From Balneolaceae bacterium (GTDB taxonomy: Bacteria; Bacteroidota; Rhodothermia; Balneolales; Balneolaceae): DNA of 64,000 nucleotides. Where the stretch lies: the NCBI GenBank assembly GCA_017640665.1, contig JAEPQE010000001.1, forward strand, positions 823,262 through 887,261, given 5' to 3'. The notes under the pieces are model-generated. The model saw nothing but the letters and a program-made list of their open reading frames with translations. It did no database searches and was not told where the DNA came from. The translations under genes and the position numbers were made by a program. Numbering within the stretch: position 1 is the first letter of the stretch; each line of letters begins with the position of its first letter. Positions 42,109 through 46,833 of the stretch are shown piece after piece.

Positions 42109-43152
42109 TTATTCTTCTTCATGCTCGTTAAATGGGTAGTTAATATTATCATAGTTTTTGATTGCTATGCGAAGCTTCTTGTTGATTTGAGTCACCAGTT
42201 TTCTTGGCCCAAGCACTTTCATTGAATCCCCAAAACTCAAAATTTTACCTTCCAGTTCTAAATTCAACTGTACATCTAAGGTGATTATCACCCCTCGATT
42301 AACAATCATATCAAGTTTTTGAGATGGATGAAGAGGCTTAGTGATAACATAGGGAGCCATTTTTTGGGCTACAAAAATTTTAACTCTTCTCGTACTTGAG
42401 TTCGGATTAACTGTTACTCCAACCACGTGTTTAAAATATTCTTTAGCTGTCGTATTAACCTTCACGTATTCAGTTCTTGCAGCAGAATCGATTTTTTTTA
42501 TTCTATCTAATGCAATTACCATAATGTTCTGTCCTTCTTCTTTAACTCCTACCAAGAACCACCGGTTATTGAATTCTTTAAGAAACTGAGGGTGAAATTC
42601 AAACTCACCCGGTTTTCTTGCTCGAAAGGATTGATAGGTTATCTTAAGAACTCTCTCTTTTTGAATTGCTTGGTAAAGCTCATCTAAATAATGGATTCCT
42701 TTTAGCCCTTCTGTTTTCTCAAAGTCAATGATTGACCTGTTCTCCGATTTGCTGGTATTGACCTTATCTTCCAGCCTCTTGATCATCTCTTCCATGTCTT
42801 CAAAGTGAGAAAAACCTTTGAATTGTTTTAATATCTCTACTACTTCATTCAGAGTCCCCAAATCCTGATCGGTCAGAGGGATATTTGTGATTGTATACGT
42901 AGGATCAGAATAGGTATAATATTTTTTCTCTTTTACAATAATGGGAGCGTTGTAACCCAATTTATCAGACCGCATTATCTGGATATCCCCCTGAATTGTT
43001 CTCTTACTAACTCCTTTTTCTATCCCTTCATACTCATATAGGGCTTCCGAACATTCGTGAATCAACTCATTAAGGCTCCAGAGTTTTTGCCTGTTTCTTA
43101 AGCATTTATCTATAGTTCTGTATCGTATTAAAGCATTTCTATTTACAGGCAT
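42109..43152 (-). CDS. WYL-domain transcriptional regulator, divergent from rsr
   Basis: A 347-residue regulator. The N-terminal winged helix (about 1-75: ALIRYRTIDKCLRNRQKLW, then GVSKRTIQGDIQIMRS) should bind DNA. The middle is helical. A WYL domain (about 150-240) has the ligand-type motifs LKITYQSFRARKPGEFEFHP and NRWFLVGV, followed by a C-terminal WCX extension (240-335). WYL proteins sense nucleic-acid-type or nucleotide ligands and often control defence or repair genes. It is divergent from the Rsr gene with 105 bases between start codons, so it probably controls the Rsr-RNA-RtcB operon. That replaces the sigma54 activator RtcR of enterobacterial rtc operons. Confidence 0.92.
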   Translation of the reverse strand: MPVNRNALIRYRTIDKCLRNRQKLWSLNELIHECSEALYEYEGIEKGVSKRTIQGDIQIMRSDKLGYNAPIIVKEKKYYTYSDPTYTITNIPLTDQDLGTLNEVVEILKQFKGFSHFEDMEEMIKRLEDKVNTSKSENRSIIDFEKTEGLKGIHYLDELYQAIQKERVLKITYQSFRARKPGEFEFHPQFLKEFNNRWFLVGVKEEGQNIMVIALDRIKKIDSAARTEYVKVNTTAKEYFKHVVGVTVNPNSSTRRVKIFVAQKMAPYVITKPLHPSQKLDMIVNRGVIITLDVQLNLELEGKILSFGDSMKVLGPRKLVTQINKKLRIAIKNYDNINYPFNEHEEE

Positions 43153-43257
43153 TTCAAAAATTTTTTAAGAAAATCTAAAAAAAAACTTTACTACGCAAAA
43201 AGACTGCGCACTTGACTCATATCATTGTGTCGTAAAAAGAAAACTAACCTTAGAAAA
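43153..43257 (+). promoter_or_regulatory. Divergent promoter/operator region between WYL regulator and rsr
   Basis: A 105-base intergenic region that must hold both promoters. It includes the inverted repeat CGCA-aaaagac-TGCG (43194-43197 and 43205-43208), a candidate regulator half-site pair, and a TTGACT at 43212-43217 that could be a -35-like box for the plus strand. The boxes are weak by eye. The region is otherwise A/T-rich. Confidence 0.4.
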
Positions 43258-44778
43258 ATGAAATTCAACCTATTGAAAAGAAGAAAAAGTCAGGTCCTCA
43301 ATTATGAGGGGGAGAAAGCAATCCGGCTTTCTCCCAAAATGGAGCTTTATACAGCTGTAGTAACTGCCGGGCTTGGTAACTATAATTACTCAACAGAAGA
43401 AGATCGACTGAATCGAATTAAAAATTTGATTCCTATGGTGGATCCTGTTTTTGTAGCAAAGTTAGCGGTGTATGCCCGTACCAAAATGTACCTTAGGTCT
43501 ATTCCTCTGGTTCTGGTTACTGAGTTGGCAAAAATACATAACGGAGATAGTCTTATTAGTAAAACAATTGTCAAAGTGATTGGAAGAGCCGATGAAATTA
43601 CCGAGCTCCTAGCTTGTTATGTAGCTATGAACAAACGTTCCAGATACAAAAAGTTGAATAAACTTTCTAAACAGATTCAAAAGGGATTAGCTAACTCTTT
43701 CAATAAGTTTGACGAGTATCAGTTTGCAAAGTATGATCGTCCTGCAGAAATCACTTTACGCGATGCTCTTTTTCTGGTACGCCCTAAAGCTGATTCTTAT
43801 AAACAACAATTATTGTTTAACAAGATTGTGGATAAACAGCTAAACACTCCTTATACATGGGAGGCTGAGCTATCTGAATTAGGACAAAGACCTTTTAGCA
43901 ATCAATTAGAAAGAGATGCTGCTTTCTGTGAAAAGTGGGAAGAGCTAATTACTAGTGGTAAGCTTGGGTATATGGCTTTACTCAGAAACCTGAGAAATAT
44001 ACTCGAGATTGGTGTTAGTTCAGATTCTATTAATACTGTGGGTCTCAGAATTCGATCTGAAAACGAAGTTGCAAAATCTAAGCAATTACCATTCAGATTC
44101 CTTTCTGCCTATCGTGAAATAAAGAAGGTGAAAAGCGAATATTCTTCTTTTATCCTCGACTGTTTGGAAGATGCAGCAACAACTTCTGTTTCAAGTTTAA
44201 AGGGGTTCGACCTTAACACAAAGGCGTTAATTGCCTGTGATGTTTCAGCCTCGATGTATGCTCCCCTTTCCAAAAAAAGTAGTATTCGTTATTACGATGT
44301 AGGACTTTTACTTGGCATGCTAATGAGTAGTAAAAGTAAGAATGTTGTAACAGGAATTTTCGGTGATAAATGGAAAGAAATTGCCCTTCCATCAAGTCAG
44401 ATTCTTGCGAATACTGAATATTTGAACAGAATTGAAGGAAGTGTTGGATACTCTACGAATGGATTTAAAGTGCTTGAGTCTCTTATCAAAAAAGGAAAAG
44501 TGATGGATAAGATCATGCTCTTTACTGACGCTCAGATGTGGGATAGTACCAGGTCCGGAAAAAAATTTCAAGACCTGTGGAAAACCTATAAAGCAACTAT
44601 GGCACCAAGTGCAAGGCTGTACTTGTTTGACCTTACAGGATACGGAAACGCTCCCCTTAAAATTGGAGGAACAGATGTCTTTCTTATTGCTGGTTGGTCA
44701 GATAAAATATTTGATGTATTGAATGCGCTAGAAGACGGAGAGACTTCACTTTCTGAAATTGATTGCATTGAAATTTAG
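43258..44778 (+). CDS. rsr: Ro60 ortholog Rsr (TROVE domain plus vWA domain)
   Basis: A 506-residue protein from the ATG at 43258 (a TTG 33 bases upstream is in frame but encodes unlikely sequence). Residues about 20-330 are a TROVE domain of HEAT-like helices that forms the ring binding misfolded and Y RNAs (PKMELYTAVVTAGLGNY, LVLVTELAKIHNG, LRDALFLVRPKA). The C-terminal vWA domain (about 330-500) has an intact MIDAS motif, ACDVSASMYAP, and LFTDAQMWDS. Bacterial Rsr works in RNA quality control with Y RNAs and exonucleases. It is followed by the five-unit RNA array and RtcB on the same strand. Confidence 0.94.
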   Translation: MKFNLLKRRKSQVLNYEGEKAIRLSPKMELYTAVVTAGLGNYNYSTEEDRLNRIKNLIPMVDPVFVAKLAVYARTKMYLRSIPLVLVTELAKIHNGDSLISKTIVKVIGRADEITELLACYVAMNKRSRYKKLNKLSKQIQKGLANSFNKFDEYQFAKYDRPAEITLRDALFLVRPKADSYKQQLLFNKIVDKQLNTPYTWEAELSELGQRPFSNQLERDAAFCEKWEELITSGKLGYMALLRNLRNILEIGVSSDSINTVGLRIRSENEVAKSKQLPFRFLSAYREIKKVKSEYSSFILDCLEDAATTSVSSLKGFDLNTKALIACDVSASMYAPLSKKSSIRYYDVGLLLGMLMSSKSKNVVTGIFGDKWKEIALPSSQILANTEYLNRIEGSVGYSTNGFKVLESLIKKGKVMDKIMLFTDAQMWDSTRSGKKFQDLWKTYKATMAPSARLYLFDLTGYGNAPLKIGGTDVFLIAGWSDKIFDVLNALEDGETSLSEIDCIEI

Positions 44779-44780
44779 AT

Positions 44781-44798
44781 CCGGGACTAGTTTCCCGG
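44781..44798 (+). other. Hairpin between rsr stop and the RNA array
   Basis: CCGGGA and TCCCGG (44781-44786 and 44793-44798) form a 6-bp hairpin two bases after the rsr stop codon. No U-run follows, so it is not a classical terminator. It could be a processing or 3'-protection hairpin that separates rsr mRNA from the structured RNA array. Confidence 0.55.
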
Positions 44799-44802
44799 TT
44801 TC

Positions 44803-44925
44803 TACGGATGTTGTAGAAATGAGATACTTCGCTCAGTTAAGGGGAGGATTTAGCCTTAGAGCTATACCGGGTTCGACTCCCGGCATGCGCTGCCCCGTCA
44901 TGCTCATTTCGACCGTTACTCCGTA
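44803..44925 (+). ncRNA. Y RNA-like unit 1 with T-arm
   Basis: Lower stem TACGGA/TCCGTA (44803-44808, 44920-44925). Internal loop 5' TGTTGTA (44809-44815) against 3' GACCGTTAC (44911-44919). Upper stem GAAATGAG/CTCATTTC, a perfect 8 bp (44816-44823, 44903-44910). Inside: the conserved ATACTTCG, a D-arm-position hairpin GCTC..TAAGG/CCTTA-GAGC (44831-44862), a canonical T-arm CCGGG-TTCGACT-CCCGG (44867-44883), and a short capped stem CATG/CATG (44884-44902) where a capped acceptor stem would be. It lies between rsr and rtcB. I read it as a Y RNA with a reduced tRNA-like module. An alternative hairpin (TTTCTAC/GTAGAAA, 44799-44819) could compete with the fold. Confidence 0.85.
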
Positions 44926-44939
44926 TTATTGAACTTACA

Positions 44940-45075
44940 GATTGAGTGTTGTAGATAAGCCTTACTTCGATTCAGGATCGTGTGGTCGCCGGTTCGAATC
45001 CGGCCTTTGAACTTCGGTTTAAAGTAGCTCAGTTGGTAGAGCACATATAGTGGCTTTTCGATAGTTACCTCAATC
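44940..45075 (+). ncRNA. Y RNA-like unit 2: circularly permuted tRNA mimic
   Basis: Lower stem GATTGAG/CTCAATC (44940-44946, 45069-45075). Internal loop TGTTGTA (44947-44953) against GATAGTTAC (45060-45068). Upper stem GATAAGCC/GGCTTTTC with one mismatch (44954-44961, 45052-45059). The inner module has, in order: small hairpin CGAT-TCAGG-ATCG; anticodon-stem 3' strand GTGTG (44980-44984); GTC; T-arm GCCGG-TTCGAAT-CCGGC (44988-45004); acceptor strands CTTTGAA (45005-45011) and TTTAAAG (45018-45024) joined by CTTCGG; TA; D-arm GCTC-AGTTGGTA-GAGC (45027-45042); A; and anticodon-stem 5' strand CATAT (45044-45048). All arms of a tRNA are present in permuted order, with U8, A14, G18G19 and A58 positions kept. 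This is the layout of YrlA-type Y RNAs. Confidence 0.9.
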
Positions 45076-45087
45076 TTTTGAAATTAT

Positions 45088-45240
45088 GTTTGAAGGTGTT
45101 GTAAACTGGAAATACTTCGGTAAACGCAGTCAACTTTTGTTGGCTTCCTTGATTACAAGGAGTTGCAGGTTCAAGTCCTGCCTCTGAATTATTTTTAGAG
45201 TGGCGGAATTTCAAATCCGGTTAAAGATCGCCCTTTAAAC
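45088..45240 (+). ncRNA. Y RNA-like unit 3: class II (Leu-like) tRNA mimic
   Basis: Lower stem GTTTGAAGG/CCTTTAAAC, 9 bp with one G-U (45088-45096, 45232-45240). Internal loop TGTTGTA (45097-45103) against AAAGATCGC (45223-45231). Upper stem AACTGGA/TCCGGTT (45104-45110, 45216-45222). The module holds a hairpin GTCAAC-TTTT-GTTGGC (45129-45144), a long-variable-arm-like hairpin CCTTG-ATTA-CAAGG (45147-45160), a T-arm GCAGG-TTCAAGT-CCTGC (45165-45181), an acceptor stem CTCTGAA/TTTAGAG capped by TTATT (45182-45200), then TGGCGGAATT (45201-45210), which equals the start of the D-arm in tRNA-Leu. The second half of the D-arm is missing. Confidence 0.87.
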
Positions 45241-45244
45241 TAAC

Positions 45245-45339
45245 AAGGTGCTGTAGACTTGTCTTACTTCGATGGCTGAAAACTCAGGAATGAGTACAAC
45301 CGGTTCGAATCCGGTTACGACAAGTCGAATGTAGCCCTT
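45245..45339 (+). ncRNA. Y RNA-like unit 4 with T-arm only
   Basis: Lower stem AAGG/CCTT (45245-45248, 45336-45339). Internal loop TGCTGTA (45249-45255) against GAATGTAGC (45327-45335). Upper stem GACTTGTC/GACAAGTC, a perfect 8 bp (45256-45263, 45319-45326). Inside are TTACTTCG, a hairpin ACTCA-GGAA-TGAGT (45282-45295) and a T-arm ACCGG-TTCGAAT-CCGGT (45299-45315). No acceptor or D-arm is present. It is the shortest unit that still carries a tRNA T-arm. Confidence 0.85.
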
Positions 45340-45355
45340 ACCTTATTAACAATAT

Positions 45356-46833
<1,478 letters not shown>

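Follow-up and report, generated by a model that had tools for sequence, protein, structure and literature searches.

The second of five tandem Ro-type units lying between ro60 and rtcB is almost certainly a YrlA-type bacterial Y RNA which, judged from its sequence, belongs to a known family as a Bacteroidota member and does not represent a new class. It was identified in a window of 64,000 nucleotides from a Balneolaceae bacterium (the whole stretch of DNA analysed here), where the array occupies positions 44803-45425. The Ro-type stem is identical in all five units and the heads differ. The permuted tRNA domain of unit 2 is known; the five-unit array and a neighbouring unit opened in the D-loop look new.

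Unit 2 is a self-contained RNA that starts with the Ro-type double stem; there follow, in order, the anticodon 3′ strand, the T-arm, the two acceptor strands (3′ before 5′) with the C-UUCG-G cap between them, UA, the D-arm, and the anticodon 5′ strand (Table 1). The sequence-only reading had described these elements in this order, together with a 7-bp acceptor under a UUCG-type cap, a T-loop TTCGAAT and a D-loop that keep tertiary-contact bases, and open ends growing into an Rsr-type stem; direct reading of the sequence confirmed all of these, the last as stems A and B, and the ends of the outer stem fall exactly at 44940 and 45075. One of the seven acceptor pairs is G-U, and an eighth is formed by the C and G of CTTCGG around the UUCG loop. 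The minimum free energy (MFE) fold agrees, containing the T-arm, the 8-bp acceptor with its UUCG loop, the D-arm, and both Ro stems. Because its energy is only modestly better than that of shuffled sequences (z -1.9), the case for unit 2 is made by comparison instead; units 1, 2, and 5 all have weak MFE z-scores, which were excluded from the evidence.

Table 1. Features of the Y RNA array and its neighbourhood (positions in the window).
Feature	Positions	Strand	Basis or remarks
WYL-WCX transcription regulator, divergent from ro60	42109..43152	-	PF13280, PF25583
Operator-like inverted repeat ACTACGCAAAAAGACTGCGCA, between regulator and ro60	43188..43212	+	
Ro60/Rsr orthologue, TROVE and Ro60 vWA domains	43225..44778	+	PF05731 E 2.4e-27, PF25045 E 7.5e-7
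Y RNA unit 1, Deinococcus Y RNA-like head, T-arm CCGGGTTCGACTCCCGG	44803..44925	+	RF01053 below cut-off
Y RNA unit 2, YrlA type	44937..45078, core 44940-45075	+	architecture, RF02553 full-model match, covariation
Unit 2 Ro-type stem, 5′ half	44940..44961	+	stem A, TGTTGTA, stem B; motif TGYYGTN12CTTC
Unit 2 stem A	GATTGAG 44940-44946 / CTCAATC 45069-45075	+	
Unit 2 TGTTGTA, between stems A and B	44947-44953	+	
Unit 2 stem B	GATAAGCC 44954-44961 / GGCTTTTC 45052-45059	+	
Unit 2 TTACTTCG	44962-44969	+	directly 3′ of stem B 5′ strand
Unit 2 anticodon 3′ strand	within 44978-44984	+	
Unit 2 T-arm GCCGG TTCGAAT CCGGC	44988-45004	+	sequence, folding, alignment
Unit 2 sealed acceptor, whole	45005..45024	+	7 bp plus C-G closing UUCG loop
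Unit 2 acceptor 3′ strand CTTTGAA	45005-45011	+	
Unit 2 cap CTTCGG	45012-45017	+	
Unit 2 acceptor 5′ strand TTTAAAG	45018-45024	+	
Unit 2 TA (UA)	45025-45026	+	
Unit 2 D-arm GCTC AGTTGGTA GAGC	45027-45042	+	
Unit 2 A26, then anticodon 5′ strand	strand from 45044, up to 45048	+	
Unit 2 Ro-type stem, 3′ half	45052..45075	+	GGCTTTTC, 9-nt GATAGTTAC, CTCAATC
Y RNA unit 3, tRNA-Leu-like class II mimic opened in D-loop	45088..45240	+	element order, D-stem covariation, z -3.0
Unit 3 D-stem	CGC 45125-45127 / GCG 45203-45205	+	
Unit 3 anticodon-arm remnant with UUUU loop	45129-45144	+	
Unit 3 variable arm	45146-45161	+	
Unit 3 T-arm	45165-45181	+	
Unit 3 acceptor, cap TTATT	45182-45188 / 45194-45200	+	
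Y RNA unit 4, T-arm AACCGGTTCGAATCCGGTT beside stem B	45245..45339	+	z -3.0
Y RNA unit 5, head short and lacking tRNA features	45354..45425	+	ends 3 nt before rtcB start
RtcB RNA ligase	45429..46814	+	PF01139 E 1.7e-34

That unit 2 is a circular permutation, with acceptor ends joined and anticodon loop opened, had also been claimed from the sequence, and local alignment with the 35 distinct tRNAs of the same genome bore this out: the score is 70.9 when the tRNA is taken as a circle, compared with 42.7 for linear tRNAs and 34.2 for shuffles, which indicates that the element order is not due to chance. The unit covers tRNA positions 42 to 28 by way of the joined ends and is opened at 29-41, in the anticodon region. 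The same holds more widely, since 143 of 268 heads scored above the highest shuffled value against circular tRNAs, 123 of them exceeding their linear-tRNA score by more than 6 points. No single isotype is claimed for unit 2, which resembles tRNA-Thr by eye but aligns best with tRNA-Gly(GCC) at 70.9, Phe and Thr reaching about 60.

Relatives were retrieved through the Ro60 protein encoded directly upstream of the array. In 49 non-redundant YrlA-type units, anchored on T-loop and D-arm sequence alone so that pairing played no part in placing the strands, the acceptor is paired in 91% of cells, compared with a mean of 58% and a maximum of 66% when strands are re-dealt, and its 7-bp length is maintained by many different sequences. 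The T-stem and D-stem are 98 and 100% paired in these units, and the first three anticodon pairs 83% (43% when re-dealt). The anticodon stem comprises only 2-3 bp in the family, with pairs 27-43 and 28-42 at about 95% and 29-41 at 55%. Stem B was not counted as independent evidence because the 49 units had first been chosen partly by Ro-stem pairing.

Covariation in the paired strands, the absence of which the sequence-only reading had named as fatal to the fold, was present in a MAFFT alignment of 12 sequences, where 97.3% of cells are paired. Cells with double changes number 81, versus 22 in shuffled and 7-14 in slid controls; the aligned sequences are related, so that these counts are not independent events, and the slid controls preserve that relatedness. 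All seven acceptor pairs show double changes. At the level of sequence comparison, these 12 relatives provide decisive support for the predicted fold. The CUUCGG cap is limited to unit 2 of the window and its nearest relative, and caps range from 3 to 27 nt across the family; it is a local detail and not a general feature.

Comparison with Salmonella YrlA had been proposed as a check, and it proved apt. The Rfam YrlA model RF02553 aligns with unit 2 (44942-45076) over its whole length (model 1-114; 37.7 bits, E 1.2e-6 in a 671-base search), below the curated cut-off of 69 bits; as unit 2 fills the entire model, its element order is the known YrlA order. As expected for a YrlA-type RNA, a protein with TROVE and Ro60-vWA domains is encoded 162 nt upstream of unit 2, and the permuted elements sit on a short anticodon stem and a Ro-type stem. 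Rfam at its default gathering threshold gave no match for the array, and ARAGORN found no tRNA there. The bases for T- and D-loop modification are present in unit 2 (UUCGAAU and AGUUGGUA). The domain of YrlA, whose crystal structure is PDB 6CU1, is similar to the D, T, and acceptor arms of tRNA and is modified by DusA and TruB (PMC8394870); by analogy, modification of both loops is expected in unit 2. The unit would presumably escape aminoacylation because its acceptor is sealed and its anticodon loop is missing.

The motif TGYYGTN12CTTC occurs five times in tandem within 600 bases, with 0.49 occurrences expected per window. A unit finder that looked for TGYYGT and YTTC separated by 12 bases, together with an 8-bp stem, an outer stem, and a 3′ loop, recovered 341 units in 85 Bacteroidota Ro loci and the five in the window; 123 kb of shuffled sequence yielded none. 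At least one unit is present in 82 of the 85 loci, with 1-9 per array, downstream of Ro and on the Ro strand. The 3′ loop measures 9 nt in 263 of the 341 units, and spacers between units are 5-15 nt. Such arrays are also found in culturable Flavobacterium and Chryseobacterium. The class of unit 1 recurs in 34 loci, the head of unit 5 has 26 nt, and heads in other arrays carry Leu-, fMet-, Ser-, or Gln/Glu-type D-arms (3-9 units each). Some heads retain tRNA anticodon-loop sequence (unit 6 of locus L114, unit 3 of L048, unit 2 of L097, and short units of L125/L126), which is fMet-like (GGCTCATAACCC) or Asp-like (CCTGTCACG), and some heads have just 25-29 nt. A link between short units and the tRNA-Asp anticodon loop (CCTGTCACG) was set aside, as only two of the 322 units screened show it, besides two from later loci. 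The stem of unit 5, 3 nt upstream of the rtcB start (45354-45429), could affect rtcB translation.

Unit 3 represents a second permutation, distinct from that of unit 2: a class II, tRNA-Leu-like molecule with joined ends that is opened in the D-loop. Its elements are, in order, GGTAAA (3′ part of the D-loop), CGC (3′ strand of the D-stem), an anticodon arm closed by UUUU, its loop being reduced to four bases, a variable arm, the T-arm, the two acceptor strands (3′ before 5′) on either side of TTATT, UG, and GCGGAA (5′ strand of the D-stem plus 5′ part of the D-loop). The circular alignment score of the whole unit (39.7) is not above the shuffled control (41.3) because there are too many gaps between segments; the identification relies on element order, D-stem covariation, and relatives, not on that score.

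Relatives of unit 3 were sought in the earlier loci and, by pattern, across 394 genomes of the phylum. As the pattern also matched four places that are not units, and a backward-read control matched five genomes, only places with the full unit 3 element order were counted. The arrangement was found in four lineages: Saprospiraceae (L044), Cytophagales (L079), Mucilaginibacter (L097), and one family represented by L125 and L126, where the acceptor is poorly paired. The D-stem strands of this type change together (CGC/GCG, GAGC/GCTY, GAAC/GTTC), and orthologues within the family retain GGTAGACGC or GGCAGACGC, matching the genome's tRNA-Leu. The anticodon loop has about four bases in most relatives and is intact in L044 and L079. 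The searchable literature, in which the main Y RNA papers are incompletely covered, yielded no description of D-loop-opened units or multi-type Y RNA arrays.

In the surrounding region, Ro is preceded in 73 of 83 loci (including L002-L006 and L044-L063) by the inverted repeat ACTRCGCA-N7-TGCGCA (at 43188-43212 in the window), likely the operator of the divergent WYL regulator. The same repeat is also seen before the array or before rtcB in L053, L062, L063, and L067. A GC-rich hairpin (CCGGGA...TCCCGG, 44782-44799) directly follows the ro60 stop, and CTCCGATTAAATTCGGAG plus a T run occupies the same place in L004-L006; the hairpin is possibly a terminator or attenuator ahead of the array. PADLOC detected no defence system besides the WYL regulator. 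Relatives of Ro60 are encoded in 92 phage records from Bacteroides, Streptomyces, Brevundimonas, Halogranum, and other phages (H1-H15, L135-L141).

We propose that unit 2 is excised from the ro60-rtcB transcript, that its lower double stem, common to all units, would serve as the Ro60(Rsr)-binding handle, and that its head, a tRNA elbow plus acceptor stem that is tRNA-shaped, uncharged, and undecodable, would recruit or occupy a protein recognising the tRNA elbow or acceptor stem. Different heads of an array might thereby dock different partners on the same Ro60 platform. Considered jointly, the YrlA-type identity and this mechanism seem probable; the excision, Ro60 binding, and docking taken alone fall a little short of an even chance. 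Spacers of 5-15 nt and the gap of 3 nt between unit 5 and the rtcB start suggest excision. Also in favour of the proposal are the full-model YrlA match, the position beside Ro60 and RtcB, the common stem under differing heads, the covariation of stem and elbow, and the modification of YrlA by DusA and TruB. Both permutations do away with the anticodon (opened in unit 2, shortened to a 4-nt loop in unit 3) but preserve T-arm and acceptor, which points to a reader of the elbow or acceptor. In Deinococcus, Rsr is tethered to PNPase by Y RNA (PMC8394870; PMC4726728). The literature searched names no established partner of the Salmonella YrlA head besides modifying enzymes, which counts against docking, and relatives that keep anticodon-loop sequence (L114 unit 6, L048 unit 3, L044 unit 2, and L079 unit 3) count against a pure elbow reader because such a reader would not need it.

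The heads might instead form a panel of decoys that bait tRNA-attacking RNases or toxins, different heads catching different nucleases while Ro60 and RtcB handle the damage. We regard this as unlikely. The adjoining RtcB ligase and the likeness of heads to several tRNA types (fMet and Leu in L114, Ser, Gln/Glu) are in its favour, although isotype-specific D-arms are few, with 3-9 units each. Most known tRNA nucleases target the anticodon loop, which unit 2 lacks and unit 3 has in reduced form; its loss in both designs argues against anticodon-nuclease bait as the general role, but does not weigh against bait for enzymes that act at other sites. Also in favour of decoys, Hughes et al. (2020) proposed that YrlA may competitively inhibit an anticodon nuclease (PMC7790460); on the other side, Salmonella YrlA is uncut by the RecA-dependent nuclease (PMC7790460), which fits an inhibitor and a bystander equally.

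Somewhat less probable still is that Y RNAs act solely as a gate, blocking the RNA-binding surface of Ro60 or holding Ro60 ready, with the tRNA shape merely stabilising the head and protecting it through tRNA modification. Gating of Rsr by Y RNA has been described in Deinococcus (PMC4726728), and units without tRNA features exist, such as unit 5 with its short head. However, the phylum-wide conservation of T- and D-loop bases and the long-range covariation exceed the needs of a stable hairpin, and the second permutation in unit 3 rebuilds the elbow again.

Circularly permuted tRNA genes occur in red algae and some archaea, and the permutation of unit 2 is formally identical to theirs, next to RtcB, a tRNA ligase. 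Processing to a working tRNA is nonetheless very improbable: a precursor would have to yield a CCA end and an anticodon loop, whereas here a 4-nt UUCG loop links the acceptor ends, CCA is absent, a leader or trailer would not fit, the anticodon loop is replaced by the Ro stem in which the ends are buried, ARAGORN finds no tRNA, and about 36 ordinary tRNAs already make up a full set in the genome. That the unit is a chance fold or a degenerate tRNA relic, with which the empty ARAGORN and default-threshold Rfam searches would agree, has a negligible probability and is refuted by the covariation (81 cells with double changes, 22 in shuffles); the 7-bp acceptor of the 49 non-redundant units also speaks against it.

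Unit 2 extends the YrlA family to members that curated models overlook in Bacteroidota, and one Ro stem with several head designs indicates that evolution arrived at least twice, by different routes, at a tRNA elbow on a putative Ro60 handle. The array is the more useful part for the Ro60/RtcB repair field: the parts that survive in both designs (elbow, acceptor) and the part that is lost (anticodon) narrow the candidate binders of the tRNA-like heads of Y RNAs. Tentatively, Bacteroidota may keep a library of tRNA mimics on a common Ro-binding stem downstream of Ro60, so that one Ro60 could serve several partners that read tRNAs or agents that attack them. The library would perhaps comprise different tRNA types opened at the anticodon loop or D-loop, the acceptor always being sealed, and a usable anticodon might be absent in nearly all of them.

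Among known systems, the tRNA-like domain of tmRNA shares partial tRNA mimicry and a T-arm with these units, and its match here (RF00023) is the 17-nt T-arm alone. Unlike the units described here, tmRNA includes a coding part, and its acceptor is open and chargeable. Unit 1 spans the whole model of the Deinococcus radiodurans Y RNA (RF01053), including T-arm and GGGG...CCCC pairing, with 27.6 bits (E 0.01) against a curated cut-off of 80 bits, and shares GUUACUUC with that RNA in the Ro-stem; the Deinococcus Y RNA lacks the YrlA order, and unit 2 is therefore not of that class. The rsr-yrlBA-rtcBA operon of Salmonella likewise brings Ro60 and RtcB together with Y RNAs and is activated by tRNA fragments (PMC7790460). 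It differs in having two Y RNAs instead of five, the sigma-54 regulator RtcR where a WYL-WCX regulator with a conserved operator-like repeat is found here, and rtcA, which was not seen next to rtcB in the window. Salmonella YrlA and RF02553 agree with unit 2 in the location beside Ro60/Rsr, the Ro-type stem, the element order, and the T- and D-loop bases, whereas unit 2 has a UUCG cap, a WYL regulator in place of RtcR, and a five-unit array, and on the 5′ side Bacteroidota units add TACTTCG and a linker of 10-18 nt, both absent from the RF02553 consensus (a 16-nt insertion in the match).
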